Below are positions 3,225-18,133 of a stretch of DNA of 64,000 nt, one piece after another. The DNA comes from Hyphomonas sp. CY54-11-8 (GTDB lineage Bacteria > Pseudomonadota > Alphaproteobacteria > Caulobacterales > Hyphomonadaceae): positions 186,001 to 250,000 of the forward strand of contig NZ_AWFD01000001.1 in assembly GCF_000682735.1 (NCBI RefSeq). The letters are read 5' to 3'. The position numbers were made by a program, and so were the translations under genes. The notes beneath the pieces are model-generated. The model saw only the letters and a program-made list of their open reading frames with translations. It made no database searches and was not told where the DNA came from. Every line of letters starts with the position of its first letter. Within the stretch, counting starts at the first letter, position 1.

Positions 3225-3269
3225 CCCCGGCCTTTCCGGGGCCGGGGGTATAGTCAAATCCGGCGATAA
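3225..3269. repeat. attL: 23-bp core plus 22-bp inner arm
   Basis: Core 3225-3247 is a hairpin: CCCCGGCC, loop TTTCCGG, GGCCGGGG. The inner arm 3248-3269 starts GTATAGTCA and ends TCCGGCGATAA. The same core lies in direct orientation at 18087-18109, and the arm recurs in inverted orientation at 18065-18086 with 20 of 22 bases matching. This is the layout of a junction made by a serine recombinase acting on a palindromic attP. The crossover bases cannot be placed inside the identical core. Confidence 0.8.
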
Positions 3270-3388
3270 TCATCAGCTCATCGTAATTGCTGACGGATCC
3301 TCCGTTGCAGGCGACGGATTGAGCTCGAGACAACCCATATGGCGTAGTGATCGGTCGATTCGATTTTACCTCTGTTTGTTATCGACTT

Positions 3389-3418
3389 TTGCACCCCGTA
3401 CCGGATAGGTTGTAATAT
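3389..3418 (+). promoter_or_regulatory. Candidate sigma-70 promoter of the ABC-3C operon
   Basis: TTGCAC (3389-3394) and TAATAT (3413-3418) are separated by 18 bp. They lie 30 bp ahead of the TTG start of the first ABC-3C gene, inside the island. Read by eye only. Confidence 0.45.
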
Positions 3419-3447
3419 TCACGCCTATTCGTTGAAGGGAAAAGCCG

Positions 3448-4620
3448 TTGGCCGATAAGCACTCCGCAGCGGATTCATACCTAGGTTACCTGTATCAAGG
3501 TCGCTACGCACTCCTTCGAGCTCTGCTAGAATCGAGACAGCATCCCACTCGCTCGGTATCGATTGAAAAATTTGACGATGTGGCCTTCCAGGATGGTGGT
3601 GATCCCATCGAGCTCATCCAGCTGAAGCATCACGGAACCCCAGGGGAAATTACGGACTTCAGCGTAGACCTTTGGAGGACGCTAAGTATATGGATGGACC
3701 GCATTGAGGCGGACCCGAACTCAGCCTCTGAAACACGGTGCATATTACTTACAACGGCATCCGCAGCTGAAGGTAGTGTGCTCGCTTGTCTACGTGAACA
3801 CAGCGAAGATAGAGATGAGGTTGCGGCTTTGTCCAAGTTGATTTCTGCAGCCGAAAGTTCAACAAACAAAACGACCAAAGCAAGCCGAGAAAAATTCCTT
3901 GCACTCACTGAACCACAACGGGTTCTATTGGTATCAATGATCTGGGTGTTCGATAATGCTCCCAACATTATTGATGTTAGAACTGAAATCGAGGAACTAC
4001 TGCACTATTCTGCGTCCGGTCATGCAGGCACATTAGTGGCGTATTTGGAAGGATGGTGGTTCAATCGGATCGTCCTTGCGCTGACGGGTGAAGCGGAAAA
4101 TTCTATACCCTTGGCCTCGATTGAGCAGATGGTGTTCGAAATTTCTGATGGCTTCAAAGTCGGCGCACTTCCGCTAGACAATGCTATTGAAACAACCGCA
4201 CCCCCTTCTGGTTTTGGAGACGATCGTGTTTTTACCAAGCAGCTAGGCTTCATTGCCGTCTCCAACACGACCCGCACGGCAGCTATTAGAGATTTTTATA
4301 GAGCCTACTCACAACGGTCGCGTTGGGTACGCGAAAGTCTATTGCTCGACGAAGAGGCTGAAAAATACGATCGAACCCTACAAGAAGCTTGGGCTCATGA
4401 ATACGCGGCGATCTGTGAAGATGTTGATGGAACTGATGAACCAACGAAGTGCCAGAAAGGCCGCGATCTTTTGAGGTGGGCGAATCGCTACATCCGTCCC
4501 CTCCGAGGACGAGACGAGCCGTGGATCTCGAGCGGTACATTCCAGATGCTCTCCGACGTCAAAAAAGTCGGCTGGCACCCAGACTACCAATCCAAACTCG
4601 ATGAGAGCAAGGGAGAGTAG
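3448..4620 (+). CDS. ABC-3C system effector with restriction-endonuclease-like N-terminus
   Basis: A 390-residue protein, first gene of a three-component ABC (ABC-3C) operon. The N-terminus has 'GYLYQGRYALLRALL' then 'SVSIEKFDDV' and 'IELIQLKHHG'. E40, D43/D44 and Q58-x-K60 fit the PD-(D/E)xK-type nuclease core seen in Cap4/Mrr-like effectors. The rest is helical and unrecognised, and probably connects to the ATPase. It starts at TTG with GAAGGGA eight bases upstream. Two bases separate its stop from the middle component. Role as a DNA-cutting effector is inferred from the family and motifs. Confidence 0.75.
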   Translation: MADKHSAADSYLGYLYQGRYALLRALLESRQHPTRSVSIEKFDDVAFQDGGDPIELIQLKHHGTPGEITDFSVDLWRTLSIWMDRIEADPNSASETRCILLTTASAAEGSVLACLREHSEDRDEVAALSKLISAAESSTNKTTKASREKFLALTEPQRVLLVSMIWVFDNAPNIIDVRTEIEELLHYSASGHAGTLVAYLEGWWFNRIVLALTGEAENSIPLASIEQMVFEISDGFKVGALPLDNAIETTAPPSGFGDDRVFTKQLGFIAVSNTTRTAAIRDFYRAYSQRSRWVRESLLLDEEAEKYDRTLQEAWAHEYAAICEDVDGTDEPTKCQKGRDLLRWANRYIRPLRGRDEPWISSGTFQMLSDVKKVGWHPDYQSKLDESKGE

Positions 4621-4622
4621 AA

Positions 4623-5126
4623 ATGCATCTGGCTGCTTGGGATAAAAGAACACAAGAGCACGCATTCATATTCAATCCCGCGTATCTCGGGAGTATGTTG
4701 TTTGAGTTTGTGAGCTCTTACGAAAAGTCGGCAAAGAAGACGACACCTTACGTTTTGCCATTTTGCGCTTTGCCACTGGTTTTGTATCCGGACAGCCGAA
4801 GAATGTTGCCAACCTCGATTAGAACCGGTCTTTATTCCTGGCTCGAACGCACTCCGGAAGTTCTTGTCGGTTATGCAGATCGTTCACGGCTTCTCGTACC
4901 CTACATCAAAGAAGCGTTGATTTATGCCACGCATCGCCACGTGCTTGAATTCAAGCAAGGCAAGATTGCGTGTGGAAGCCGAAAGGCAGCCTTCTCCGCA
5001 TCAAGATTGGACTTAGTCACACCCGATATTCGAGATACGATTCGATCTACTCGAATGACTGGAAAGTGGTTTGCTGCGGCAGGTGAAGAGCAGACTATCC
5101 TTGCTTCTCTGGGAGTGCGCCCGTGA
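4623..5126 (+). CDS. ABC-3C middle component
   Basis: A 167-residue protein between the effector and the DUF3732 ATPase. 'HAFIFNPAYLGSMLFEFVSSYEK' near the N-terminus is the typical opening of the 'three component ABC system middle component' families (NPA motif). The rest is small, helical, and has no catalytic motif I recognise. In the published classification these proteins are thought to bridge ATPase and effector. Its stop overlaps the GTG start of the ATPase by 4 bp, so translation is probably coupled. Confidence 0.78.
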   Translation: MHLAAWDKRTQEHAFIFNPAYLGSMLFEFVSSYEKSAKKTTPYVLPFCALPLVLYPDSRRMLPTSIRTGLYSWLERTPEVLVGYADRSRLLVPYIKEALIYATHRHVLEFKQGKIACGSRKAAFSASRLDLVTPDIRDTIRSTRMTGKWFAAAGEEQTILASLGVRP

Positions 5127-7066
5127 GTATGATAATTAGTTCACTGACGATATATTCTTTCGATGGTGAAAGCCGCACTATTCGCTTTAGGGAGAGCGGA
5201 CTTAACATCATTACAGGTAAATCAAAGACCGGGAAGTCATCAATAATCGACATCATCGATTACTGCCTCGGTCGAGGGGAGTGTTACATTGCCGATGGCG
5301 TAATCCGCCAATTCGTTTCTTGGTTTGGACTTCACCTAAAAAACGGCAGCGATCAAATCTTTATTGCGCGACGTAACCCACCAAGAAACAGAACCACTGA
5401 TCCGGACGTCTTCATACGCAGAGGCGTGATTGACGATATACCCAACTATCCCGACCTGAGATCAAACATACCTGTGAATGAACTAGAACGTTTGGTTACA
5501 AGATTTGCAGGGATATCTGAAAATGAGCACCGCCCTGAGACAGGCTCGCGGAGACCACTAAAAGCAAACATAAGCCACGCTCTATTTCTGTGCTTTCAAA
5601 AGCAAGATGAAATAGCTAGCCGAGAACGTCTGTTTCACCGCCAGGGTGATCCATTCATTCCACAAGCTATAAAAGATACGCTTCCGTATTTTCTGGGTGC
5701 AGTCGATCAAGAGTTCTTCCTTTGGCAAAGGGAACTTGATGTCGCTCAATCGGAGTTGAGAGCACTGGAGGCTCAACGAGATAGTTTGGCGGTTAGTACT
5801 CAACGGGCTCTATCAAAGGCCCGGCAATTCTTGGCAGACGGCAAACGAGTGGGGCTTGTTGAAGATACCTTCGACACTAGTGATCCTCAAATCGCGTTAG
5901 ATCGACTCGTTCAAGTATCTCAAACGTCGGCAATCGCTGATCCGTCCCTTCCACAAGGACAGGACCTTATTTCCAGTTTGAGGGATGAACTTCAGAGCCT
6001 TAGGAGCTCGCTTTCCGATGTGCAGAATGACGTTCGAGCTACTCGACATTTCTTTTTCGAGCAGTCTGCATTTTCTCGGGAGGTAACCGAACAAAGAGAT
6101 CGGCTGGCTTCAATAGAACTGTATAAGGACGGTGCCTGCGAAGATACCCTCTGTCCGCTTTGCGAGAACAAGCTCTCAACTCGAGTTCCAGCGGCAACCG
6201 ATTTGGCGAACGCACTTGAACAATTGAACCGACAACTCAATGCGGTAACAAACGAAAGCCCTCACCTTCAGACGCGCCTCAGTGAATTAAATGAGAAGCA
6301 AAGCGAATTGCAGAGTAACATTGTTCAAGCGCAAAGAGCGATAAATCAGGCTTACATTGAAGACGAAAAAGCCCGCTCTCTCAGAGATCTAGCAATTGAC
6401 CGCGCTAAGGTGATCGGAAGAATTAGTGCGTTCATAGAACAAACCTCTTCAGTGAACGAATCAGCTGATTTAGAGAAGCGAATTGAGGACGCACGACGCA
6501 AAGTATCTGTGCTGGCAGAACGTGTTAATAGCGAGGAAGTCGCTGATCGAGTGCAATCAACATTGAACTTGATATCGGATAAAATGACAGAGTACGCAGC
6601 CGACTTGAATTTGGAGCATACCGGGGGACGCATCCGACTTGATATCAAGAAGCTAACAGTCATTGCTGACACCAATACGGGGCCGGTTCAACTTAACAGA
6701 ATGGGCAGTGGCGAAAATTGGGTTGGGTATCATGTAGCCACTCTACTCGCACTGCACTATTGGTTCCGCACGACAGATCGGCCGGTTCCAGGGTTCATGA
6801 TTTTTGATCAGCCAACTCAAGCTCATTATCCTCCTGAGGCGGACAGAGATGGTAGAGTAGACGAGTTGCTGGATGAGGATCGCCGAGCGGTGAGAAACCT
6901 ATTTGAGACAATGGCGGATGTCGCCACGGAAATTGGTTCTGGCTTTCAATTGATAGTTCTGGATCATGCCCATCTGGATGACTCTTGGTTCGAAGAGGCG
7001 ATAATCGAAGAGTGGAGAGGTGCTGATGCGCTGGTTCCGCTTTCTTGGGTAGACTCTGCGCGATAG
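5123..7066 (+). CDS. DUF3732-type SMC/Rad50-like ATPase of ABC-3C system
   Basis: A 647-residue ABC ATPase with SMC-like layout. Walker A is GKSKTGKSS at residues 32-40. Two coiled-coil stretches (about 210-330 and 355-490) flank a zinc-hook-like 'CEDTLCPLCENKL' (Cys near 339-347). The ABC signature is 'MGSGENW' (about 526), Walker B is 'FMIFDQPTQ' (about 558) and the switch His is in 'LIVLDHAHLDD' (about 612). This is the DUF3732 architecture of ABC-3C conflict systems, presumed to sense invading DNA or other cues and license the effector. It starts at GTG inside the preceding stop; an ATG follows two codons later. Codon use is more A+T-rich than the chromosome. Confidence 0.88.
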   Translation: MSMIISSLTIYSFDGESRTIRFRESGLNIITGKSKTGKSSIIDIIDYCLGRGECYIADGVIRQFVSWFGLHLKNGSDQIFIARRNPPRNRTTDPDVFIRRGVIDDIPNYPDLRSNIPVNELERLVTRFAGISENEHRPETGSRRPLKANISHALFLCFQKQDEIASRERLFHRQGDPFIPQAIKDTLPYFLGAVDQEFFLWQRELDVAQSELRALEAQRDSLAVSTQRALSKARQFLADGKRVGLVEDTFDTSDPQIALDRLVQVSQTSAIADPSLPQGQDLISSLRDELQSLRSSLSDVQNDVRATRHFFFEQSAFSREVTEQRDRLASIELYKDGACEDTLCPLCENKLSTRVPAATDLANALEQLNRQLNAVTNESPHLQTRLSELNEKQSELQSNIVQAQRAINQAYIEDEKARSLRDLAIDRAKVIGRISAFIEQTSSVNESADLEKRIEDARRKVSVLAERVNSEEVADRVQSTLNLISDKMTEYAADLNLEHTGGRIRLDIKKLTVIADTNTGPVQLNRMGSGENWVGYHVATLLALHYWFRTTDRPVPGFMIFDQPTQAHYPPEADRDGRVDELLDEDRRAVRNLFETMADVATEIGSGFQLIVLDHAHLDDSWFEEAIIEEWRGADALVPLSWVDSAR

Positions 7067-7189
7067 GTGGAGTTTTGAGGTCCGGCTCCTTCAATGGAGA
7101 GCTGATATTCGGACCGATCGGTTGAGAGGTGTTCAAGCCTGTGTGGCGGATCTAAATCTGTCCATGGAGTTAGAGAGTCAGCTGAAAAC

Positions 7190-7645
7190 CTAACGCTCCA
7201 AAATATCTGCCGTCCTAGGCGCTCCGCATAGATCGAGGCACTTTTCACAGAGAACGCTGAGTGGTCCGAAAACTGGTACCTTACCCAGCTTACTCCTTTC
7301 TCCATACCGGAGACGTCCAGAGCTAATTAAGTCAGATACAATCTCCAAAATTTCTTCATCCAAATTTTCAACCTCAGCCCCCAACCCCTTGCACATCGTC
7401 CAGCAAGCCGACAAATTATGACTGAGTTTTCGGACAGCGTCCTCTTCTATGTCACGGTCAAGTAGATATGCTTTCAAAGATAGTTCTATAGAATGAGCGC
7501 ACAGGGTCATTACTGGAGGTGGAGCTGCAATTTCATAGCCGGGCCAACGCCCTACACGTTCATCAGCTGACAGCGCTGCTTCGAAGTTCAGCCTCGCTAA
7601 ATATTTATAATAGTTTGGACGGTTTGCTTCATTAACTGAGAACAT
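7190..7645 (-). CDS. HEPN-like protein downstream of cas1
   Basis: About 151 residues, mostly helical. 'MTLCAHSIELSLKAYLLDRD' followed by 'VRKLSHNLSACWTMCKGLG' is the two-helix signature of HEPN-type proteins of the nucleotide-handling/RNase superfamily. A clear catalytic RxxxxH is not visible ('RKLSHN' has R-x3-H), so it may be a non-RNase HEPN. The frame runs up to 7720, overlapping the end of cas1, but the ATG at 7645 has GGAG close upstream and is preferred. It probably forms an operon with cas1 and the wHTH protein. Confidence 0.6.
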   Translation of the reverse strand: MFSVNEANRPNYYKYLARLNFEAALSADERVGRWPGYEIAAPPPVMTLCAHSIELSLKAYLLDRDIEEDAVRKLSHNLSACWTMCKGLGAEVENLDEEILEIVSDLISSGRLRYGERSKLGKVPVFGPLSVLCEKCLDLCGAPRTADILER

Positions 7646-7716
7646 ACCACTCTCCGATTTATCTGGCATATTGAAGTGTTTGGAGCGGGATATCTGATGC
7701 TTTCTGGAAGGCTTGT

Positions 7717-8796
7717 TCAAGCATTTCCAACCAAGCTCCGGATCAACTCAGTATTTATCCGCACCACCCCGTTGTGTTGCAAATCAAAATCCGCACCTGA
7801 CAAGTTCTCAGTTCGGACCAGTTCCAGAAGCTTTCGATCTGCATCCGGCCGCATTGGCTCCATCTGATCAAACACAAAGGCGTGCCGATCGAAGTTGGAA
7901 TTGTCATGCGTTATCCCAACACTCGGATCATACCCATCCGCGATGACTTTGATACGGACCTCACTCTCGAGAAGGGCGTAGGCATAATTCAACATTGCAT
8001 TTACCGGATGTGTTGCGCTCTTATTCCGAACACGGCTCTCCCCCCACTTCAGGGATGATCTTGAAAAGTATCTCTTCCACTCATCCGGTACGGGATAGCG
8101 CTTAGTTGCTTTCCATTTGATGTCGAGGGCGCGCCAGGCAAAGAAGTATCCTTGAGCCACAGTTCCTTCAATTGCACTTAGCTTTGCGATCGTGTCCGGA
8201 GGCGACTGCTTAAGTTCCGCTAATGCGCTCTTTGCCGCTTCGATCGCTTTCTCTCTGGACCGACTTTCAGGAAGCAAGTTCTCTAGATTGTAGAGTGTGC
8301 CGAGGATTTTCTGCTGAATTAGAGGAACAGCGTATTTCACGCGGGCTGGTTCGCTAGCTCGCGTTTTCCTTTGCCATGCAACTTTCTTCGGATCAGCCGC
8401 ATAGCCACTCGCGGAAACAACGAATTGAACCCGACCATCAAACCGTAGCCGGATAAGGTCAATCGATTGCTCTTGCAGCCAGTCTATCGCATCCAGTGTG
8501 ATGTTGCCTTTGCCATCTACGATCACAATGCGAGGCGGCAGATCCAAGCTTCCCTTAAAGAAAGTCGTCTCTGCAGGTTTTGATGGGAAGTGGGTGAGCC
8601 CGTCCTTGATGACCAGGCGACCTTTGTCGACGCGGATAGACAGGCCGTAGCCCGTCAAAATCAGTGGGTTTGATTGGCGCTCGCGGCGTTTGCGTTTTGG
8701 TAGGTTGGAATTGTATTCGGAGTGCCAATACTGGCTTCTGACAGCCCACTCGTCATATGCGTTTTCATCCGAAGCGCTTTGCGTTTGAAGTGTCAT
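7717..8796 (-). CDS. cas1: Stand-alone Cas1-family integrase/endonuclease
   Basis: A 359-residue Cas1 homologue. The N-terminal beta domain has 'LILTGYGLSIRVDKGRLVIKDG' and 'IDWLQEQSIDLIRLRFDGRV'. The catalytic alpha domain has 'LSAIEGTVAQGYFFAW' (E210), 'HPVNAMLNYAYALLESEV', 'GITHDN' (H297) and 'DQMEPMRPDAD' (D310/E313). This keeps the Glu-His-acid metal site of active Cas1. No cas2, effector cas gene or repeat-spacer array is visible in the window. It sits in a minus-strand cluster between an unknown wHTH protein and a HEPN-like protein, in an element that also encodes PolB and HNH. This resembles the casposase context of casposons, without their usual ends. ATG start with a weak GGGA. Confidence 0.88.
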   Translation of the reverse strand: MTLQTQSASDENAYDEWAVRSQYWHSEYNSNLPKRKRRERQSNPLILTGYGLSIRVDKGRLVIKDGLTHFPSKPAETTFFKGSLDLPPRIVIVDGKGNITLDAIDWLQEQSIDLIRLRFDGRVQFVVSASGYAADPKKVAWQRKTRASEPARVKYAVPLIQQKILGTLYNLENLLPESRSREKAIEAAKSALAELKQSPPDTIAKLSAIEGTVAQGYFFAWRALDIKWKATKRYPVPDEWKRYFSRSSLKWGESRVRNKSATHPVNAMLNYAYALLESEVRIKVIADGYDPSVGITHDNSNFDRHAFVFDQMEPMRPDADRKLLELVRTENLSGADFDLQHNGVVRINTELIRSLVGNA

Positions 8797-8816
8797 TTTG
8801 TTCCCGATTTCTGCTG

Positions 8817-9725
8817 CTAGTTTATAGCAGAAATCTCATCAGAATTCGACGTTGGATCGGCAATTGTAATCAACAAACTCAGCATCAGCGGCAGCCAATT
8901 CGGATCGGCAAATGCGCTCATCAGGATAGTTGGAGTTGGCTCTGGGAAAGCTTGAGCAAACGCCCCCAAAATTTCGATCACCTGTTTCAGCTCGCGAAAC
9001 ATTTCGACGGCGCCAAGCAGTTGGGCATCGGTCGCATTCCGAACGCGATTGGCCAACGCCAGATCTGTTTCATCCTCGATGCCAAGCATGCCCGCCATCA
9101 AATTCGGGATAATGTGTAGAGGCAGTTGCGTAGGATCAAACGGCAATCCGCCTGGAATGACCTTATTCAAATGACGTTCGACATCTGTTTGATATTCAGT
9201 CGTCTGTAGTGGATTTTCGCTAGTTCCACCGATTGCAGAATTGATCGCCGCAAACATCAGGTCTTGGGGCAACACAAACCCGGTCTCATTCAGTAACGGA
9301 TCAACTTTGGATGTCAGTCGTCTTTGCGCAGTCGATAAGTTCGCGAATTCTTCTGGGTGGTCACTCGGCACATAGTTTCGAAGACCGTCACGACGCATGC
9401 GCTTGATGGACCGAACTGCCTCAACTTCCAGACTCTCTCTTAATTGCGTAGGATCAATATCGAAGCCTTCAGCAGCCAGACCCAATCGCAATTGATTTGT
9501 GCGCTTAAATCCTCTCGCCTCCATGGCCACTAAAGCGAGGCAGCGTTCGACGCTGTCGTCTGAATAAGACCAATCAGGTGCCACCGCACGCTTCTGACCT
9601 TTGGGCTTAGCGCCGGTCACAAGTTTTTTGCTCACCCAGCTTTCAAGCTTGGCCTCGCTTGGCGGCTCAACGCCATGCTCGGCTGCTTTCACAGCCAGTT
9701 CGTCCAGAAGCTCGGCCTTATTCAC
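8817..9725 (-). CDS. Unknown protein with MerR-like winged-helix N-terminus, next to cas1
   Basis: About 302 residues, not assigned to a known family. 'KLESWVSKKLVTGAKPKGQK' followed by 'WSYSDDSVERCLALVAMEARGFKR' looks like the helix-turn-helix and wing of a MerR-type DNA-binding domain (residues about 20-80). The middle is charged and helical. Residues about 150-290 are hydrophobic-helical ('PNLMAGMLGIEDETDLALANRV') and could form an interaction domain. The frame continues to a TTG at 9755; the GTG at 9725 ('NKAELLDELAVKA') looks the more natural start, but neither has a strong ribosome site. It ends 20 bp before cas1, so it is likely co-transcribed with it and may be a targeting or regulatory partner. 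Confidence 0.55.
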   Translation of the reverse strand: MNKAELLDELAVKAAEHGVEPPSEAKLESWVSKKLVTGAKPKGQKRAVAPDWSYSDDSVERCLALVAMEARGFKRTNQLRLGLAAEGFDIDPTQLRESLEVEAVRSIKRMRRDGLRNYVPSDHPEEFANLSTAQRRLTSKVDPLLNETGFVLPQDLMFAAINSAIGGTSENPLQTTEYQTDVERHLNKVIPGGLPFDPTQLPLHIIPNLMAGMLGIEDETDLALANRVRNATDAQLLGAVEMFRELKQVIEILGAFAQAFPEPTPTILMSAFADPNWLPLMLSLLITIADPTSNSDEISAIN

Positions 9726-9846
9726 AGCGAAACCCAGTTTACAAATCCTACGCAAATTGGATGCAAGTCGCAGACCAAGGCCTCGCTGCGATTGGCTTTC
9801 TGTCTCCTATCCGAATTGGATGAAGAGTCCCCGTCTTAGGAGTCAT

Positions 9847-9879
9847 GCCGGTCTTCAGTTGTTTGAACTGGAGGCCGGC
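9847..9879 (+). promoter_or_regulatory. Hairpin that buries the ribosome-binding site of the HTH gene
   Basis: Arms GCCGGTCTTCAGTT and AACTGGAGGCCGGC pair over 14 positions (two G-U in RNA) around the loop GTTTG. The GGAGG ribosome site (9870-9874) of the gene starting at 9882 lies in the right arm. It could be a translational switch in the leader, or as DNA an operator for the HTH protein it precedes. Confidence 0.6.
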
Positions 9880-9881
9880 CA

Positions 9882-10460
9882 ATGGCCAAGAAGAGAGACT
9901 ACAAGGCCGAATACGCCCGCCGCATTGCGCGCGGAAAGGCCCGTGGTCTGTCCAGGTCGCAGGCTCGCGGGCACCCCCGACAGGGTGAAGTGCCGATCAA
10001 GCCGGCCGCTCTTCGCCCTATAAACGAAGAAAAGATCTCGCAAGCGCTTCAGGCGATGTACGCCGGAACGTCGCTTACGGCAGCGGCGAAGTCAGCTCAT
10101 GTTTCTCCGGACAGGCTAAAGCGTGCACTGGTCGCGAAGAAGCTCGGAATCAAAGAGGGGCGGCGTTGGATTGTGACCGACGCCCGTCCACGCCGCGTAC
10201 AGATCATTGTCGACGCAAAGTCAAAGGCAATCATCGTTCCGACTTTTGCAGACGCAAGCCGCGTCGGAGTTTATCGCAACCGGGTTCGCCGGTTCCTGGA
10301 CACGCACGACCTTACTTATCTTGAAGAGTTCGAGGGTGAGACCGTCACAGACATCAACGGCAAATCCTGGCTGCTTGAGACCGATCCCAACGTGCTGATC
10401 CGGTTCGCGCTCAAAGATGAGCCCGCATTCCACGAAATCTACCAGATCGTTGAACCATAA
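9882..10460 (+). CDS. HTH DNA-binding protein heading the HNH-PolB operon
   Basis: A 192-residue basic protein. The first 35 residues ('YKAEYARRIARGKARGLSRS' and following) are an Arg-rich leader that I recognise from many phage and island proteins. 'MYAGTSLTAAAKSAHVSPDRL' (about residues 58-78) is a helix-turn-helix. The C-terminal half is mixed alpha/beta and unrecognised. It is the first gene of a three-gene plus-strand operon with the HNH protein (17-bp gap) and PolB. Its GGAGG lies in a stable hairpin. It could be an autoregulator, an origin-binding protein or a polymerase accessory factor; none is proven. Confidence 0.6.
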   Translation: MAKKRDYKAEYARRIARGKARGLSRSQARGHPRQGEVPIKPAALRPINEEKISQALQAMYAGTSLTAAAKSAHVSPDRLKRALVAKKLGIKEGRRWIVTDARPRRVQIIVDAKSKAIIVPTFADASRVGVYRNRVRRFLDTHDLTYLEEFEGETVTDINGKSWLLETDPNVLIRFALKDEPAFHEIYQIVEP

Positions 10461-10477
10461 CAGGAAAGGAACATCTT

Positions 10478-10855
10478 ATGGACGATATCATAAACCCCAA
10501 GGAGCTGCGCAAAGAAGCGCACTTCCGACGCCTGAAAAGTCGCAATCCGATTTGCTTAAGATGCGGATACAACACATGTCCTGCTGCGCTTGAATACGCT
10601 CATGTCATACCCCGCAAATTTGGTGTTGGAGATGGAGGTGCGCTGTGTCGCAATTGTCATCGCGAGATCACTGAAGCCGAAGTCGGTCTTGGATTTACTC
10701 CTCAAGCAGAAGATCGGGAGCTTGAACAAGCCGGGCGCTATGTCCTTGCACTGGGTGAGTGGCTCGAGATCATCGCACGTACCCTCAAACACTTCGGCGC
10801 GTCCCTTTTGCAGCGAGTTGAAACCATTCCGGCACAGTCGGAGGGCGAACAATGA
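10478..10855 (+). CDS. HNH-type zinc-binding nuclease-like protein
   Basis: A 125-residue protein with an HNH/zinc-finger core at about residues 27-67: 'CLRCG', then 'LEYAHVIPRKFG', then 'LCRNCHREI'. The two CxxC pairs would hold zinc, the His in 'YAH' would be the general base and the last His the second metal ligand. The C-terminal half is helical. AGGAAAGGA precedes the ATG. Its stop overlaps the polymerase start (ATGA), so the two are translationally coupled. HNH nucleases accompany PolB and Cas1 in casposons. Here the role (nicking, primer generation or processing) is inferred from context only. Confidence 0.7.
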   Translation: MDDIINPKELRKEAHFRRLKSRNPICLRCGYNTCPAALEYAHVIPRKFGVGDGGALCRNCHREITEAEVGLGFTPQAEDRELEQAGRYVLALGEWLEIIARTLKHFGASLLQRVETIPAQSEGEQ

Positions 10856-13563
10856 AACGGTCTCCATTCCGAGCCCCGATCGCCGTGCGTGTTTTTACGA
10901 AGCCGAACGGAAAGCCCCTCGCCCAGAAGAGGGCGGGTGGCTCCGATAATCTGGTATCCGAGTTCCATGTTGTGTTCGACACGGAAACAACTTTGTGCCC
11001 CGCTCAGAAATTGCGGGTCGGTTGCGCCCAAGTGCGTAAGGCAAACCATCTCGTTCGCGAACTCTTGTTCTATGCGGATGACCTGCCGACCTCCGACATC
11101 AATACGGTTCGAGAATATGCTTTCGCGAACGGACTTGATGTTTGTACAGTTGCCGAGTTTCGTACCAAAGTTTTGCTGACCCTTTGTTATGAGGCGCACG
11201 GTACTTTGGTAGGATTTAACCTACCGTTCGATATCTCCCGGATTGCTCTCGACAAAGTCATTGCTCGAGGCAACATGCGCGGCGGCTTCAGCTTTCCCCT
11301 CACACCATGGAAAAGCGATCCGCACATACGTGTGAAGCATCTTAGCTCTTCGGCCTCTTTGATTGATTGGGCGGCTCCCGGCAAACAATACACCGGACGG
11401 GGTATGCGCAATCGCGATCAGAAAGTGCCCGTCAATCGCGGTTCCTTTGTCGATGTGAAAACTCTGGCAAGCGCGATGCTGACGGGACGCTATTCTCTGA
11501 AGACTCTGGCAGAGAAGCTGAACGTTCCGACCCAGAAGCTCGAAACTTCAGAGCATGGCGGCCCAATTACGTTCGAGTATCTCGATTACCTGCGCGCAGA
11601 CGTGCAGACGACTTGGGAATGCTTTGAAGTTCTGGCTGAACGTTATGCGGAATTCGAACTCACCACGCCCATCAGCCGGATTCTCAGCGAAGCTAGCCTT
11701 GGTAAAGCACTACTTGAGAAGATGGGCATTGAGCCTCTTCTGGCGGGTGGCTGGGAAAAAGTAGACGTCTCCGCTTTCGGGCATTTGCTGCCCACATATT
11801 TTGGCGGACGTGCGGAGGTCCGCATTCGACGGCAGGCGGTGGGGGTCATCCATACCGACTTCAAATCCATGTACCCAACTGTGAATGCCCTTCAGGGATT
11901 GCATGAATTCCTGGTGGCAGATGGGTTCGAAACCTACGACGCGACTGATGAGGCAAATGCCTTTTTGAAAGAGCTTTGCCTGGAAGTTCTCCAGAACAAG
12001 GCAACCTGGCGAAACCTGCATGTCATTGTCGAAATCGTACCGGATGGGGACCTGCTGCCGGTGCGGGCACCCTATGCCGGTCCCAGCAAGCCATACACAA
12101 TTGGGCTCAACTACATGAAGGCTGAGTTTTCGTGTTGGTACGCACTCGCTGATTTGGCGGCCTCGAAAATCCTTACGGGTAAAATCCCTCGCATTCGTCG
12201 CGCGATCGGGTTCCGCCCCGGTCCTAAGCAAGTTGGATTGCAGCCCGTCAATCTGATGGGGCGGGAAGACTGCCTGCTGGATCCGAACGCCAGCGATTTG
12301 TTTTCAGCGATCATCAACATGCGCGACAAAGCCAAAGCGGCCAAAGACCCAATTGAGAAACATCTGAAGATCCTCGCGAACTCCACCGGCTATGGTGTCT
12401 ATGCGGAAATCATCCGTGATGATGCGCCGAAGCCGGAGCCACTCACGATCGTTGGGATGGATGGTCAGGAAACTGCGTGTCAGTCAAAAGCCCTTGAAGA
12501 GCCGGGGCGGTACTTTCATCCCCTCCTGGCGACCATGATAACAAGCGGTGCACGATTGATGTTGGCCTGCGCAGAGGCCGTGGCTGAGCGGCAAGGTCTT
12601 GGATGGGCGTTCTGCGATACGGATAGTCTTGCGATTGCCCGCCCCAATGCGATGGACCGGGATGTGTTTGAAGCCTGTGTTCAGAATGTGATTGATTGGT
12701 TTGTGCCTCTCAATCCCTATGAGAAGCCGGGTTCGATCTTGCAGATCGAAGACGTGAACTACGCACCGGACACCAAAGAACATGTCCGTCTGTATTGCTG
12801 GGCCATATCAGCGAAGCGCTATGCACTGTTCAACATCGATGCGGATGGAACCCCAATCATCCGCAAAGCTTCCGCACATGGCTTGGGGCATTTGATGGAG
12901 CCTTACGGCGAAGATGATCCAGCTCCAAATGTACCGCCCCCCATATGTGACCTTCCCAAGGTCGGGGTCAAACGCTGGCAGTATGATCTCTGGTTTCACA
13001 TAATAAAAGCAGCACGTAGTGGGCAACCCAATCAGGTTGGGCTCGACTATCACTCAGCGCTCTCAAAGCCGGCCCTGATGCGATACGGGGCGACGAGTCC
13101 TGCCCTCTTGAGATGGGTGAAGGCTTTCAATGAGGGCAAGCCATTCTCCGAACAGATCAAGCCGTTTGGGTTTATGGTCGCGCCTGTCGCGAAGGGAGCA
13201 TCCGACCTGGAGCCGGAGGCGGAACTGATGAGCAATAGTCCTCGCGGCAGACCGCAGACGTATTTACGTCCGAAGCCGGTTGCGCCGTTCGAGCGTGATC
13301 CTGCCAAAGCTGCCGCTTGTACGTTTGATCGTGAGACCGGAGAGCCGGTTCCGCTTGAGTTGCTGAAAACCTATGCTGAAGTATTGCGACTTTATCATCT
13401 GAGTTCTGAAGACAAATTCGAGAATGGCGGACCGTGGGATACCGGACTGACAGCGCGTCGCTATATCTGCGCAGCCGAAGTCGTATTGATCGGGAAGGAA
13501 GCGAATAAGGTTGGGGATTTTGGCGAGATTGATCCTGAGAGAAAAGCAGTTGCGAAATTTTGA
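10852..13563 (+). CDS. Family B DNA polymerase with 3'-5' exonuclease
   Basis: A 903-residue complete family B polymerase. Proofreading motifs: Exo I 'FDTET' (D43, E45), Exo II 'GFNLPFD' (N123, D127), Exo III 'YLRAD' (Y246, D250). Polymerase motifs: A 'DFKSMYPT' (D336), B 'KILANSTGYG' (K506, Y514), C 'DTDS' (D589, D591) and the DNA-binding 'KRY' (655-657). All catalytic residues are present. About 240 residues after 'KRY' are unrecognised. Whether it is protein-primed, primer-independent (pipolin-like) or uses nicked DNA cannot be told by eye; no terminal-protein or primase gene was recognised. Such enzymes are uncommon in alphaproteobacterial chromosomes, so it probably replicates or repairs this element. 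Confidence 0.9.
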   Translation: MKRSPFRAPIAVRVFTKPNGKPLAQKRAGGSDNLVSEFHVVFDTETTLCPAQKLRVGCAQVRKANHLVRELLFYADDLPTSDINTVREYAFANGLDVCTVAEFRTKVLLTLCYEAHGTLVGFNLPFDISRIALDKVIARGNMRGGFSFPLTPWKSDPHIRVKHLSSSASLIDWAAPGKQYTGRGMRNRDQKVPVNRGSFVDVKTLASAMLTGRYSLKTLAEKLNVPTQKLETSEHGGPITFEYLDYLRADVQTTWECFEVLAERYAEFELTTPISRILSEASLGKALLEKMGIEPLLAGGWEKVDVSAFGHLLPTYFGGRAEVRIRRQAVGVIHTDFKSMYPTVNALQGLHEFLVADGFETYDATDEANAFLKELCLEVLQNKATWRNLHVIVEIVPDGDLLPVRAPYAGPSKPYTIGLNYMKAEFSCWYALADLAASKILTGKIPRIRRAIGFRPGPKQVGLQPVNLMGREDCLLDPNASDLFSAIINMRDKAKAAKDPIEKHLKILANSTGYGVYAEIIRDDAPKPEPLTIVGMDGQETACQSKALEEPGRYFHPLLATMITSGARLMLACAEAVAERQGLGWAFCDTDSLAIARPNAMDRDVFEACVQNVIDWFVPLNPYEKPGSILQIEDVNYAPDTKEHVRLYCWAISAKRYALFNIDADGTPIIRKASAHGLGHLMEPYGEDDPAPNVPPPICDLPKVGVKRWQYDLWFHIIKAARSGQPNQVGLDYHSALSKPALMRYGATSPALLRWVKAFNEGKPFSEQIKPFGFMVAPVAKGASDLEPEAELMSNSPRGRPQTYLRPKPVAPFERDPAKAAACTFDRETGEPVPLELLKTYAEVLRLYHLSSEDKFENGGPWDTGLTARRYICAAEVVLIGKEANKVGDFGEIDPERKAVAKF

Positions 13564-13592
13564 ACCTTCGTACTTCGCTTCAGTGAAAGCTG

Positions 13593-13988
13593 CTAGCTAT
13601 TGGACATAGCTTTGAGTACGCGCGCCATTTGCATCAACTTTTTGCGCGAGCGAGTTCGATTGATCCAGGAGCGACACTCCTCGCGTGCGGCTTCAACTGC
13701 GCCGTTTTTCTTTCTCTTTAATCGCTGCGTATCGTTGAAGAGGTCGTCTACGGTAACGCCTAACGCATCAACAATTTCCACAATCTTGGATGCGCTAACG
13801 CGGCTTTGACCGACTTCGTACTTTTGGACCTGTTGCTGACTGACGCCAATACTGGCCCCAAGTTCGGCGATGGTAAGGCCACGCTCATTTCGTAGGATTC
13901 TAATATTCCGGCCAACTTGCTCGTCGACACTTGTTGGTGCTCGAGAACCGGCGTCCTCTTTTCGACGGCTTTTTTTCATGGCTTCCAT
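13593..13988 (-). CDS. XRE-family transcriptional regulator
   Basis: A 131-residue protein with a cro/cI-type HTH: 'VGRNIRILRNERGLTIAELG' followed by 'IGVSQQQVQKYEVGQSRV' (about residues 25-65), then a basic C-terminal tail. A second ATG lies three codons downstream. Just upstream is a palindrome (14013-14034), a likely self-operator. It is convergent with the polymerase gene, ending 29 bp after it. Probable repressor of element genes; its targets are inferred from position. Confidence 0.82.
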   Translation of the reverse strand: MEAMKKSRRKEDAGSRAPTSVDEQVGRNIRILRNERGLTIAELGASIGVSQQQVQKYEVGQSRVSASKIVEIVDALGVTVDDLFNDTQRLKRKKNGAVEAAREECRSWINRTRSRKKLMQMARVLKAMSNS

Positions 13989-14012
13989 CCGCTTTCTGGA
14001 ACCAAGTTAGCA

Positions 14013-14034
14013 TTATAGTTGAAAACAACTATAA
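14013..14034. promoter_or_regulatory. Palindromic operator upstream of XRE gene
   Basis: TTATAGTTG and CAACTATAA form perfect 9-bp arms around AAAA, 25 bp upstream of the XRE start at 13988. The size and symmetry fit a dimeric cro/cI-type repressor site. Confidence 0.55.
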
Positions 14035-14157
14035 AGAGTTGGTTGCCAGATTTCTGAATGGAAGCCGTCGATAAAGAGTGCGTCTCTTCGCCGGTTGCGA
14101 AGACAGCTACGAATGACTTCGACTAAGAAATGGAAAAGCTTGTCGCCCCGTTGGTGG

Positions 14158-14484
14158 TTATTGCTTCTTAGATCTTAGGTGGTTGGACGCAGCATCCTTG
14201 GCGTCCTCAAGCAACTTCTGCTGATCAATCGGCTCAAGTTGTCGATAAGCTTCAAGCAATTGCTTTTCTTGGATATTTTTGGTGCGGAGATCCGAACTGA
14301 TTAAGTCCAACGGATCACATTCAAACACTTCGGACAACTTCTGCAACCATGGGATTGATAGTCTTCGACGCCCATTTTCTAAGTGGCTTATTTGCTGGTT
14401 GCTCGCACCAACAGCCTCTGCAACTTCGTTCAAAGTCATTCCGCGCGCATTGCGGAACTCTTTAATTCGATTAGCCAGCGTCAA
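14158..14484 (-). CDS. XRE-family transcriptional regulator (second)
   Basis: A 108-residue protein. 'LANRIKEFRNARGMTLNEVA' with 'VGASNQQISHLENGRRRL' is a full cro/cI HTH at the N-terminus. 'WLQKLSEVFECDPLDLIS' is the standard helix that follows it. The C-terminal 40 residues are helical and polar. The gene is divergent from the serine recombinase; 147 bp lie between the two starts, including a palindrome at 14577-14595. It is therefore the best candidate for repressing recombinase expression and keeping the island integrated. Confidence 0.85.
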   Translation of the reverse strand: MTLANRIKEFRNARGMTLNEVAEAVGASNQQISHLENGRRRLSIPWLQKLSEVFECDPLDLISSDLRTKNIQEKQLLEAYRQLEPIDQQKLLEDAKDAASNHLRSKKQ

Positions 14485-14576
14485 TACAAGAGCCCCGCGC
14501 CCTGAAGGTACGATTCTACAAAAGTAAGATTTGATGAGGATGGCAATGAATCAAAGGCATTAGACTCCGAGCGGAT

Positions 14577-14595
14577 TTCCTACTATATGTAGGAA
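14577..14595. promoter_or_regulatory. Palindrome in the recombinase promoter region
   Basis: TTCCTAC and GTAGGAA, perfect 7-bp arms around TATAT, 37 bp ahead of the recombinase ATG. The central A+T segment could be part of a -10 element. A bound repressor would then block recombinase transcription. Confidence 0.5.
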
Positions 14596-14631
14596 CTCTG
14601 TTTAGTTTGCTGTCGGCGTTCGAGAAGTGCG

Positions 14632-16218
14632 ATGAGCGATCGGGACCAACCGCGTACGCGCCAGGAATTGTCCGGATTAGGTGCCCCTAAGGACAATAAG
14701 CTGCCAGTTGCGCAGTATTCTCGCATGTCGACGGAGCATCAGCGTTACTCGATTGAGAACCAACAAGCCGCAATTAAGAGGTATGCTGATAAACACAATA
14801 TGGAAATTGTTCAGAACTACGCCGATGCTGGAAAAAGTGGTCTAAGCATTGATGGGAGAAGCGGCTTAAAGAAGTTGATCGTTGATGTCACAACCCAGAA
14901 CGTTGGCTTTAAAGCAATTCTGGTTTTTGACGTTAGCCGCTGGGGGCGCTTTCAGGACGCCGACGAAGCTGCCTACTATGAATATATATGCAAGAAGGCG
15001 GGTATATCCGTTCATTATTGCGCTGAGCAATTTGATAATGATGGCAGTCCAGTTTCGACAATTGTCAAAGGCGTAAAGAGAGCAATGGCCGGTGAATATA
15101 GCCGGGAGTTGTCGTCAAAAGTATTTGCTGGGCAATGCCGCCTGATTGAGAAGGGCTTTCGACAGGGAGGCTCTGCCGGATACGGCCTAAGACGAATGCT
15201 TGTCGATGAGCAAGGCACGGAAAAGGGTGTTCTCACTCGAGGACAACAAAAGAGCCTACAGACGGACCGGGTCATACTAGTACCAGGCCCCAAGGAAGAA
15301 ACTCAGACGGTAAAACGCATCTATGACATGTTCGTAGAGCAAGGCATGAGCGAAGCCGAAATTGCTGCTTCGCTGAACGCTGAGAATATCAAAACTGACC
15401 TTGATCGCGATTGGTCCAGGGGAACAATTCATCAGATCCTGACAAACGAAAAATACATCGGGAACAACCTATTCAACAGAACCTCCTTCAAACTAAAGCA
15501 ACGACGTGTGAAGAACACACCGGATATGTGGATCCGTGCAGAAAATGCTTTTGAACCGATCGTTTCAGCTGAACTGTTCCATACTGCGAAGGGCATCATT
15601 CGAGAAAGGGCCCGGCGGTTTTCCGAACAGGAGATGCTGGACCGCCTAAAATCCCTGTACGATCAATATGGATACATTTCGGGAATAATTATCGACGAAG
15701 CCCCAAACACACCATCCAGCAGCGCGTATTCACACAGATTTGGTAGTCTTATCCGAGCGTATTCGCTAATTGGCTTCGAACCTGACCGGGACTATCGCTA
15801 TATTGAGATCAATCGCACATTGCGGTCCTATCACGCTGAAACGGTTGCGAGTATCGTTCGTGCGATAGAGCTATTAGGGGCAACGGTTGAGTCTGACCCT
15901 GCCACGCAACTGCTGACGATAAACTCTGAATTCTCAGTGTCGATTTGTATCGCCCGGCACCTGTTCACGAATGCGGGCTCATCCAGATGGAAGGTTCGTT
16001 TCGACTCCAAGCTCCGCCCTGATGTCACTATTGGTGTACGAATGGATCAAGAAAATGAGGCGGCTCTGGACTACTATTTGCTTCCCCGTCTTGATTTTCA
16101 ATCATCGTCCGTACGTCTTGCGCTACACAATGAGCTGGCATTGGACGTCTATAGATTTGAATCGATCGAACCCTTGCTGAGAATGTCGGATCGCACGCCG
16201 ATTGCAGAGGTTGCATGA
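14632..16218 (+). CDS. Large serine recombinase (integrase of the island)
   Basis: A 528-residue recombinase. The resolvase domain (about 25-165) has 'AQYSRMSTEHQRYSIENQ' with nucleophile Ser33, 'VFDVSRWGR' and the long E-helix 'GEYSRELSSKV'. The 'Recombinase' DNA-binding domain follows (about 170-300: 'GGSAGYGLRRMLVD', 'IHQILTNEKYIGNN'). No CxxC zinc-ribbon is visible, which is unusual for large serine integrases. The C-terminal 200 residues are a different, unrecognised domain. Its stop overlaps the first ParB-like gene. It is the only recombinase seen in the element apart from Cas1, and the flanking att structure fits its class. Confidence 0.9.
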   Translation: MSDRDQPRTRQELSGLGAPKDNKLPVAQYSRMSTEHQRYSIENQQAAIKRYADKHNMEIVQNYADAGKSGLSIDGRSGLKKLIVDVTTQNVGFKAILVFDVSRWGRFQDADEAAYYEYICKKAGISVHYCAEQFDNDGSPVSTIVKGVKRAMAGEYSRELSSKVFAGQCRLIEKGFRQGGSAGYGLRRMLVDEQGTEKGVLTRGQQKSLQTDRVILVPGPKEETQTVKRIYDMFVEQGMSEAEIAASLNAENIKTDLDRDWSRGTIHQILTNEKYIGNNLFNRTSFKLKQRRVKNTPDMWIRAENAFEPIVSAELFHTAKGIIRERARRFSEQEMLDRLKSLYDQYGYISGIIIDEAPNTPSSSAYSHRFGSLIRAYSLIGFEPDRDYRYIEINRTLRSYHAETVASIVRAIELLGATVESDPATQLLTINSEFSVSICIARHLFTNAGSSRWKVRFDSKLRPDVTIGVRMDQENEAALDYYLLPRLDFQSSSVRLALHNELALDVYRFESIEPLLRMSDRTPIAEVA

Positions 16219-17117
16219 TGCCGAGAAGCTCTGCCGACTCGGTCACGGAGATCAAAATAGAAGACATCTACGTCTTGAATCCACGCGACCGAAATCGAGC
16301 CAAGTTTCGAAAAATTGTTGAGAGTATCTCGGCAATTGGTTTGAAGCGTCCAATCAAAGTAAGCCTTTCAACAGGAAAGGCGAAGTCCAAGCCTTATGTG
16401 CTCATATGTGGTCAAGGTAGGCTCGAAGCGTTCAAGGCTTTAGGTGAAACTCGAATACCTGCAATCGTTGTCTCTCTTTCGGAAGAAGAATGCTACGTTC
16501 AAAGCCTGATCGAAAACTTGGCCCGACGATCACCCACCTCACTGGAAACCGTGCACGAAATTGGAGTGCTGTCTGACAGAGGCTTCACCTCTTCTGATAT
16601 TGCGGCAAAGACAGGCCTTAGTCCGGATTATGTGTCCGGACTGTTGAAGCTGATCAATGACGGCGAACAACGTTTGTACGCAGCCGTCGAACGCGGCGAT
16701 ATTCCGATCAGTATTGCCGTCGAGATCGCTCGAACTGGCAGCCATGAAACGCAAGCGGCTTTAAACGAGGCTTACACACGAAAGGAGCTGAGGGGTAAGA
16801 AGCTCAAAGCTGCAATTAAGCTTGTGAGAGATCGCGAAAGGTGGGGCAAAGCTATAACGAGGGCAAAATCCGGATCGAGTAGGCCTGTAACGGCACACGC
16901 TATGGTGCGGCACTACAAAAATGAAACTGAACGACAGCGCAGTTTGATTAGGCGAGCCAACCTGACCGACGCACGCCTTGCTGTCGTCAAAAGTGCTTTA
17001 GGCGCGCTATTCCACGACGAACACTTTGTTACCCTGCTTCGGGCGGAGGGATTAGAAACCCTGCCTACACAGATTGTGGACTTTCTGGACGATGAGGTCG
17101 GCGATAATGCAGTCTGA
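16215..17117 (+). CDS. ParB/RepB-like protein 1
   Basis: A 300-residue protein. The N-terminal ParB/sulfiredoxin-like domain contains 'ISAIGLKRPIKVSLSTGK', 'ICGQGRLEAFKALGETRIPA' (in place of the usual GERR box) and 'SLIENLARRSPTSLE'. An HTH follows: 'TSSDIAAKTGLSPDYVSGLL'. No ParA partner is encoded nearby. It overlaps the recombinase by 4 bp and the second ParB-like gene. I recall the recombinase-ParB-RepB gene trio from other alphaproteobacterial islands; a role in recombination directionality, stability or copy control is possible but unproven. Confidence 0.82.
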   Translation: MMPRSSADSVTEIKIEDIYVLNPRDRNRAKFRKIVESISAIGLKRPIKVSLSTGKAKSKPYVLICGQGRLEAFKALGETRIPAIVVSLSEEECYVQSLIENLARRSPTSLETVHEIGVLSDRGFTSSDIAAKTGLSPDYVSGLLKLINDGEQRLYAAVERGDIPISIAVEIARTGSHETQAALNEAYTRKELRGKKLKAAIKLVRDRERWGKAITRAKSGSSRPVTAHAMVRHYKNETERQRSLIRRANLTDARLAVVKSALGALFHDEHFVTLLRAEGLETLPTQIVDFLDDEVGDNAV

Positions 17118-18003
17118 GATAGTTCGAGCTTTCGAAGATGAGTGCCTGATGCTGAAGTTGGATGACTTGGTGCCCTCCAAGCTCGTCTCCAAACCTACTA
17201 AAGCCACGAAGAAATTCGAGCAGATCTGCTGCTCCATTGCGGAAGTTGGTCTGGTAGAGCCGATTGTTGTGCACCGAATAAAGAACGGAAAAGGCAAATA
17301 CCTAATCCTGGACGGCCATATGAGGGTCGAAGCTTTACAGGACGCTGGAGAAACGGAAGTCACGTGCCTGGTATCAAGCGACGACGAAGGGTACACCTAC
17401 AACAAAAGAGTAAATCGCCTTTCGACCGTACAAGAACATTTCATGGTCCTACGGGCTATCGATAATGGAGTCTCAGAGAAAAAGATCGCGAAAGCGCTTG
17501 GCCTAAACATCGAGTCCATTCGCAGAAAGAGAGACCTTCTCAAAGGCATCTGTTCAGAGGCCGTTGATATTCTCAAGGACGCCAAGTTTGCAATGGATAC
17601 TGCGGGAATCCTGAGAAGGATGACCCCAATAAGGCAGATTGAAGTTGCAGAGCTTATGGTTGCAACAAACAACTATTCCAGTTCTTACGCCAAAGCATTG
17701 CTGGTTGCCACAAAGTCAGACCAGTTGCTTGACCCGACCGGCAATCGTTCGATTCGAGGGGTGTCTGACGACGACCGGCGCAAGATGGAAAGAGAAGTTG
17801 AGGAACTAAGAAGAGACATCAAGTCGGTCGAAGACCACTATGGAACCAACATGCTCAAACTTGTTGTTGCAAGCGGGTACATTTCTCGACTTCTCGATAA
17901 CGGCAATGTTTCAAAATATCTGGATCGACACCATCAGGAACTACGGGATCAGCTGTATTCGTTACAGGAAAGTATTGATGCCGACCTTGGGGCAAACGCC
18001 TGA
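17107..18003 (+). CDS. ParB/RepB-like protein 2 (RepB C-terminal-domain type)
   Basis: About 298 residues. ParB-like N-terminus with 'ICCSIAEVGLVEPIVVHRIK' and 'LILDGHMRVEALQDAGETEV'; HTH 'VSEKKIAKALGLNIESIRRK' in the middle; C-terminal helices and a coiled coil ('RRKMEREVEELRRDIKSVED'). This matches plasmid-partition RepB C-terminal-domain proteins. The frame opens at 17074, but the ATG at 17107 has GAGG nine bases ahead and overlaps the previous stop, so it is preferred. It is the last gene before attR, 61 bp from the inner arm. Confidence 0.82.
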   Translation: MQSEIVRAFEDECLMLKLDDLVPSKLVSKPTKATKKFEQICCSIAEVGLVEPIVVHRIKNGKGKYLILDGHMRVEALQDAGETEVTCLVSSDDEGYTYNKRVNRLSTVQEHFMVLRAIDNGVSEKKIAKALGLNIESIRRKRDLLKGICSEAVDILKDAKFAMDTAGILRRMTPIRQIEVAELMVATNNYSSSYAKALLVATKSDQLLDPTGNRSIRGVSDDDRRKMEREVEELRRDIKSVEDHYGTNMLKLVVASGYISRLLDNGNVSKYLDRHHQELRDQLYSLQESIDADLGANA

Positions 18004-18064
18004 TTTAGGTCATTTCCCGCGTCATACATCGCAAACCCACTAATCCAATGAGCCGAAATGTAAT

Positions 18065-18109
18065 TTATCGCCGGAGATGACTATACCCCCGGCCTTTCCG
18101 GGGCCGGGG
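18065..18109. repeat. attR: 22-bp inner arm plus 23-bp core
   Basis: The inner arm 18065-18086 (TTATCGCCGGA...GACTATAC) is the inverted counterpart of 3248-3269. The core 18087-18109 repeats CCCCGGCC-TTTCCGG-GGCCGGGG exactly. On the minus strand the core is the stem of the folE terminator, but it is now followed by GTATAG in place of the T-run left at the other island end. Confidence 0.8.
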
Positions 18110-18133
18110 TTCGTTGTTCGGTTAGGCTCGAGA

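Follow-up and report, generated by a model that had tools for sequence, protein, structure and literature searches.

The window analysed here, 64,000 nucleotides (nt) of Hyphomonas sp. CY54-11-8 (contig NZ_AWFD01000001.1, positions 186,001 to 250,000), contains a 14.9-kb island whose element body spans positions 3245-18089, with a G+C content per kb of 47-55% within it versus 57-68% beyond. From left to right, the island carries a Lamassu-type operon, a small gene without a family match, cas1 and a predicted helix-turn-helix (HTH) gene on the minus strand, and an HTH-like gene, an HNH-type nuclease gene and the family B DNA polymerase gene polB on the plus strand. To the right of polB lie two Cro/C1-type regulators, followed by a serine recombinase and two ParB/RepB-like genes. 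Five of these genes (cas1, the two HTH genes, HNH and polB), all with open frames, form a casposon core, and every sequence feature tested marks the element as a casposon, apparently near family 3. We consider it very probable that this Hyphomonas-type alphaproteobacterium carries in the island a complete and probably functional casposon, of the family 3-like, bacterial branch, because it combines this gene core with casposon-type terminal inverted repeats (TIRs), a target duplication and a Cas1 of the casposase clade.

An original prediction, made from the letters of this DNA, had listed complete cas1, polB and HNH-type genes beside a serine recombinase and two ParB-like genes, all of which we recovered with open frames, and its recognition of Cas1, PolB, HNH and HTH as a casposon core was borne out by the gene set. 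The casposon-type ends and the Lamassu-type operon (3448-7066) had escaped it. Further, its statement that no described family has this combination was not supported, as the gene set is that of casposons and a 2014 list already included a casposon of the alphaproteobacterium Henriciella marina (PMC4046053).

Element ends and core genes

An inverted-repeat search placed the left TIR, GGGGTATAGTCAAATCCGGCGATAA, at 3245-3269 and the right TIR, with reverse complement GGGGTATAGTCATCTCCGGCGATAA, at 18065-18089; the two differ at 2 of 25 positions. They belong to a 30-nt inverted repeat (3240-3269 and 18065-18094, 93% complementary) that ranks first of 315 inverted pairs and is alone in exceeding 90% among the best 25 of the 315 listed. 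In the whole 3.9-Mb genome, the TIR pattern GGGGTATAGTNANNTC has two occurrences, one at each end of the element, and its reversed control has none. Flanking the element is an exact 23-bp direct repeat, CCCCGGCCTTTCCGGGGCCGGGG (3225-3247 and 18087-18109), whose outer ends are precisely the boundaries, 3225 and 18109, first proposed for the island. A run of G blurs the border between target and element, such that the duplication measures 17 bp (3228-3244 and 18090-18106) when GGGG on the left and CCCC on the right are counted as TIR, and 15 bp if GGGGG is assigned to the TIR. The TIR start, GGGGTATAGTCAAATC, is identical at 12 of 16 positions to GGGATATAGGTAACTC of MetMaz-C1, the Methanosarcina mazei casposon reported to move in vivo (PMC10359463). 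The Aciduliprofundum boonei casposase requires a TCCCC-3' end and makes duplications of 14-15 bp (PMC6614799); the window element ends in ACCCC-3'. A casposon nested within a serine-recombinase island was considered and rejected, as TIRs sought around the cas1-polB block (~7.2-14 kb) yielded none that was prominent and the outer ends are the TIRs.

The casposase-type Cas1 (7717-8796, minus strand) retains E210, H297, D310 and E313, which we take to be the catalytic set and which are invariant in all 15 aligned sequences (the window and 14 relatives). Its best match in the PDB is 6opm (E=6.5e-17), followed by 4n06 (7.6e-11); the code 6OPM appears twice in the M. mazei casposase paper. In a quick Cas1 tree, a check suggested with the original prediction, the window sequence falls among 45 PolB-linked Cas1 (its own and 44 others) that split from 23 other Cas1 with a Shimodaira-Hasegawa-like approximate likelihood ratio test (SH-aLRT) support of 96. 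The 23 come from other alphaproteobacterial genomes that belong to the class sample described below and had no PolB match there; they were taken, without a check of their neighbours, as Cas1 of clustered regularly interspaced short palindromic repeat (CRISPR) systems. In the same tree, which holds no named casposon-family references, 41 bacterial Cas1 separate from four archaeal ones (support 93), and the sequence nearest to that of the window, at 62% identity, is from a Henriciella metagenome-assembled genome (L067). No second Cas1 was found in the host genome in searches at E<=0.001 and E<=1e-10, and none of the scanned island proteins matched Cas2 or a CRISPR effector; the search for repeats covered 2900-18300 only.

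PolB (10852-13563, plus strand) has D43/E45, D336 and D589/D591 among its invariant residues. A profile search of PDB sequences for its subclass gave nothing at E<=0.01, and a fold search ranked the phi29 polymerase first (E 9.1e-13), with other B families scoring similarly, so that the enzyme may or may not be protein-primed. An origin from a phage, a plasmid or a viral contig was considered and rejected, as PolB had no match in any of these. In two elements of the Henriciella group (L048 and L049), polB is split in two frames near residue 300, either in reality or by sequence error. Between cas1 and polB lie the remaining three core genes. The first HTH gene (8817-9755, minus strand) encodes a 312-aa protein with a winged-HTH-like N-terminus by predicted secondary structure and a helical C-terminus; a fold search gave no match at E<=0.001, with MerR-type folds appearing only at E>2. 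The second (9882-10460, plus strand) encodes a 192-aa protein with an HTH-like stretch by eye, and the putative HNH-type nuclease is encoded at 10478-10855 (plus strand).

Recurrence in other genomes

PolB matches were present in 3 of 385 genomes sampled from the class and in 22 of 398 from the order, the host's own genome being counted in each. A profile scan returned 106 relatives in genome contigs, of which 80 were kept; these derive mostly from Alphaproteobacteria and also from Nitrosomonas, Acidobacteria, Chloroflexi, Nitrosopumilus and others. The block of cas1, HTH, HNH and polB, for which a genome search had been proposed, recurs widely. Specifically, Cas1 stands beside PolB in 72 of the 80 loci by tblastn (some loci are cut by contig ends), and cas1 is co-oriented with polB rather than opposed in only three of the 72 (L087, L093 and L105). 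Across 81 loci (the 80 and the window), the second HTH gene was found in 77 and HNH in 76.

TIRs and target-site duplications (TSDs) were sought in 86 loci, namely the window, J356, L040, L049, L050, L051 and the 80 relatives; this count leaves out L053 and L054 as well as short pieces of PolB in G622 and G701. The finder required ends of the GGG[TA]A type that agree at 10 or more of 16 positions and a duplication score of at least 9, and allowed the G run to shift, as a finder with strict TSD adjacency misses the window element. TIRs with a duplication were found in 39 of the 86 loci. With GGGG as the element start, 37 of the 39 have an exact duplication, of 14 bp in 16 elements, 15 bp in 10, 16 bp in 5 and 17 bp in 6, the last including the window; L101 and L125, which have no exact repeat at this anchor, were omitted from the length count. 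This comparison of boundaries and integrases, likewise proposed at the outset, yielded a TIR start shared by 39 elements and a serine recombinase in three. Given that TIRs and 14-17 bp duplications recur while 3 of 39 elements carry a serine recombinase, Cas1 is the likely integrase of the element. The suggestion that Cas1 is not the integrase was unsupported, for the element has TIRs and a duplicated target like those of casposons.

Three further arrangements were seen among the relatives. A related element (L050, 2266-18523) has different ends, GGGGATAAGGGAAAGCA, and a hairpin target of the same kind as those described below. In L058 (5082-14330), a second TIR start, GGGTATAGTTATCTCC, directly follows the right target duplication, as if tandem casposons had formerly shared one hairpin. 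Finally, two genomes, G419 (L041/L042) and G475 (L049/L050), hold two cas1-polB elements each.

Several points weigh against the casposon identification or limit it. The finder yielded no TIR and TSD in 47 of the 86 loci, many of whose contigs are cut; of the others, some (L050, L113, L121, L122 and L131) have other ends and the rest are unexplained. The Cas1 tree was built by a quick method and has long branches on the side not linked to PolB. The first HTH gene was detected in just 28 of the 81 loci at the threshold used, and the HNH name depends on conservation and a weak Pfam match (E=0.075). Lastly, the element is probably mobile as judged from its sequence, and no movement was observed. 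A casposon that has kept its core, lost its movement and been retained as a defence island would agree with the single copy in this genome, and the exact duplication and near-identical TIRs indicate mobility only at the time of insertion. We nevertheless judge this improbable, as the core frames are open and the conserved residues of Cas1 and PolB are retained.

Serine recombinase cassette

The large serine recombinase (14632-16218), with Resolvase and Recombinase domains, and the two ParB/RepB-like genes (16215-17117 and 17074-18003) form a plus-strand cassette whose end lies 61 bp from the right TIR. Among the 39 TIR-bounded elements, a recombinase was found in three (tblastn E<=1e-4), the window, L072 and L101, in each case inside the TIRs; in L072 and L101 it is accompanied by both ParB-like genes and lies within ~130 bp of an element end. 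A relative of the recombinase (E<=1e-20) occurs in 18 of 200 genomes of the order, own genome included, and the set of recombinase and two ParB genes was present at all 10 other loci fetched, with no cas1 or polB match in the stretches seen. In the Cas1 tree, L072 and L101 fall in a sphingomonad branch distant from the window, and hence two or more separate gains of the cassette are the simplest account. The original prediction had suggested that the serine recombinase moves the element and that Cas1 may serve other ends, and the presence of a complete recombinase with two ParB-like genes, together with their position near an element end in three casposons, could be read in that way. We give this almost no credence, as the same TIR start bounds 36 elements that lack the recombinase, the TIR type and 14-17 bp duplications are of the casposase kind, and the three-gene set also stands apart from cas1 and polB in the stretches seen at the other loci. 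Further, serine integrases are known for short att cores and are not known to leave TIRs. The serine recombinase and its two ParB-like partners thus appear to be cargo rather than the shared mover. A near-palindrome, TTCCTACTATATGTAGGAA, precedes the recombinase at 14577-14595, with similar ones upstream in L177 and L179, and is a possible operator of the cassette.

Insertion into the folE terminator

To the right of the element lies the host gene folE (18134-18892, minus strand), encoding GTP cyclohydrolase I (TIGR00063, 195.4 bits against a cut-off of 181.6). Read on the minus strand, the order is folE, the hairpin AACCCCGGCCCCGGAAAGGCCGGGG, the element, and a second hairpin copy with TTTTTT. 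The left copy of the duplication is thus the folE terminator hairpin, and the T6 tract beyond it (3219-3224, minus strand as read) would have adjoined the hairpin behind folE before insertion. With one hairpin copy behind folE and the T tract beyond the far copy, the insertion divided the intrinsic folE terminator in two; since then, folE retains a hairpin and the T tract has been displaced to the far side.

folE is present in all 42 genomes of the genus, own included. Among the 29 other folE loci of congeners, a strict test found a perfect hairpin with a T tract within 120 nt and no element in 15, and six of these (L156, L158, L160, L169, L172 and L173) have a hairpin of the CCCCGG...CCGGGG type. 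A tRNA gene as target was considered and rejected: a single tRNA was found in 24 fetched relative pieces, ~500 bp beyond the element.

Hairpins as duplicated targets

The duplication of a hairpin is not confined to the window. The duplicated target forms a hairpin (stem score of at least 6, with mismatches penalised but allowed) in 28 of 39 elements, versus 1.6% of random positions (n = 7800) and 2.3% of intergenic ones (n = 6547) in the same loci, where intergenic is defined as lying outside stop-to-stop frames of 150 codons. A hairpin with a T run occurs in 7 of 39 versus 0.4%. When the hairpin axis may lie no more than 1 bp from the centre of the TSD, 27 of 39 still form a hairpin, versus 0.8% of random positions. 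Low scores were counted as misses, including those of L071 (2) and L102 (3), whose arms are imperfect, and L101 (2), whose TSD was placed off centre. Further, among 37 aligned targets, mirrored bases pair at positions -3, -1, +2, +3 and +4 in 25, 30, 26, 26 and 25 cases, each higher than the maximum of 1000 shuffles (18, 24, 21, 24 and 20, respectively). The remaining 12 of the 17 positions do not exceed their shuffle maximum; position -2, at 28, equals it, +5 reaches 23 against 24, and the pairing at +1 is explained by a nearly fixed C...G. Given that the two arms co-vary, the aligned sequences argue for a preference for an inverted repeat, or symmetry, rather than for a single motif. One archaeal case was also seen, in a Nitrosopumilus element (L117, 631-16501) whose ends read GGGGTAGAGATAGGGCGG and whose 14-bp duplication, AGCACGACGTGCTG, is a palindrome of stem score 5; hairpin targets may therefore reach beyond bacteria.

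These observations lead us to propose, tentatively and with our own opinion almost evenly divided, that casposases of this branch recognise a hairpin-forming inverted repeat, as a symmetric duplex or an extruded cruciform, prefer terminators and palindromes like repetitive extragenic palindromic (REP) elements, and duplicate them. Against it stand the non-palindromic targets of J356, L080, L086, L088, L125 and L129. At folE, 14 of the 29 congener loci yielded no such hairpin by the strict test (several have imperfect ones by eye), no exact empty copy of the site was found and congener hairpins differ in their letters; most of the loci nearest by folE (L148-L150, L152 and L154) have a different hairpin, GGCGCTCG...CGAGCGCC. 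A joined-flank search, made for the L055 element only, found no continuous site in 29 genomes.

A competing explanation is that hairpins are hit as safe, open or frequent intergenic sites and that the casposase itself reads nothing beyond a brief frame, for example CC...GG. In its favour, a TSD that begins with CC is required by the A. boonei casposase (PMC6614799), 31 of our 37 targets have C at position 1, and a portion of the target region of L055 (query 437-513) recurs at two other places in its genome. We regard this as somewhat unlikely, given how rare hairpins are in the intergenic control, how many of them stay centred on the TSD, and that the co-variation extends 3 bp outside the TSD. 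That the hairpins belong to the element ends rather than to the target is highly improbable, for although the TIR begins with a G run that blurs the border, the hairpin letters vary between elements while the adjoining GGGGTATAG-type start stays, the window has the T tract beyond one copy and folE beyond the other, and 15 of the 29 congener folE loci have a hairpin and T tract without an element.

Cargo and accessory genes

The operon at the left end (plus strand) encodes an LmuA-like protein (3448-4620; Lamassu/ABC-3C CTD7, E 5.1e-59) with a weak Cap4 nuclease match, an LmuC-like protein (4623-5126; ABC-3C middle component 3, E 5.3e-12) and an LmuB-like SMC/Rad50-type ATPase (5123-7066; DUF3732, E 1.6e-141). 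LmuA, LmuB and LmuC are all matched within this one operon, which is casposon cargo and a predicted anti-phage system. Cargo of the relatives was scanned in 74 large open reading frames (ORFs), one from the window and 73 from 31 relatives, out of 212 listed. At E<=1e-8, the PADLOC models matched include, among the best 25 of 453 families, mad2 with six members and mad3, type IIG restriction-methylase, PtuA and AriA with three each, and Pfam found DNA methylases and AAA ATPases. A single protein can score under several PADLOC models, chiefly the methylase and ATPase ones, and we claim nothing finer than that this cargo appears defence-like, of restriction-modification and ATPase types.

The small gene between the operon and cas1 (7190-7720, minus strand) encodes a protein of 176 aa; its start and the stop of cas1 share 4 nt. 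It has no match in Pfam, NCBIfam or PADLOC and is, by eye only, possibly HEPN-like. The two Cro/C1-type HTH regulators are encoded at 13593-13988 and 14158-14484, both on the minus strand.

Discussion

The closest described counterparts include the family 3 casposons, among them HenMar-C1 of the alphaproteobacterium Henriciella marina (Krupovic et al. 2014, PMC4046053). Family 3 casposons, as described, share with the window element a bacterial host, a Cas1 without added domains, HNH, a shared HTH protein, PolB, and TIRs with a TSD, for which the median over casposons is 15 bp. Those descriptions, in the portions of PMC4046053 available and compared by description rather than with the HenMar-C1 sequence, mention no hairpin targets, Lamassu cargo or serine recombinase cassette; the targets they report are the ends of EF-2 and tRNA genes and intergenic sites. 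MetMaz-C1 resembles our element in its TIR start, its 14-bp TSD and its Cas1, a homologue (6opm is the best PDB match of the window Cas1), but is archaeal, with studied targets at the 3' end of tRNA-Leu and an AT-rich TSD (PMC10359463, PMC6977970). The A. boonei casposon shares the CCCC-3' element end and a 14-15 bp TSD (PMC6614799, PMC9939771). According to a review (PMC9939771), what its Cas1 recognises is a palindromic repeat, that of the tRNA-Pro T-psi-C loop, and an inverted repeat near a casposon target therefore has precedent; in that system, however, the inverted repeat is part of the leader, which precedes the TSD, whereas in the window element it is the TSD itself. Compared with Lamassu (ABC-three-component) systems, in which LmuA, LmuB and LmuC all have counterparts here, the window operon differs in that its carrier is a casposon. 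Other PolB elements, pipolins among them, share a PolB on a bacterial integrative element, to which the window adds Cas1 and casposon TIRs. Pipolins use tyrosine recombinases.

In the open-access casposon literature, of which our survey was partial, we did not find a hairpin or terminator as a duplicated casposon target, and an unpublished casposon survey by its authors is mentioned in PMC9966878. The hairpin target habit of this casposon branch is thus apparently undescribed. As a mechanism, we envisage that Cas1, acting as casposase, would join the CCCC-3' ends of the element to two target strands ~14-17 bp apart, with a DNA hairpin (an inverted repeat with a short loop) as the favoured target. 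Gap filling would then duplicate the hairpin, such that a regenerated hairpin brackets each element end, while PolB may fill or copy the element. Excision and target choice may be aided by HNH and both HTH proteins, which possibly also help in finding hairpins.

It has been proposed that CRISPR Cas1 derives from casposons, and in CRISPR arrays Cas1 duplicates a palindromic repeat. If hairpin recognition holds, the target logic of CRISPR arrays is present in free-living transposons. The casposases studied so far, in the literature available to us, target the ends of tRNA or EF-2 genes, and a branch that duplicates hairpins makes the origin of Cas1's use of palindromic repeats testable in vitro. 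Further, our results present casposons as vehicles for a Lamassu operon, and hairpin targeting would explain how these elements spread without disrupting genes.

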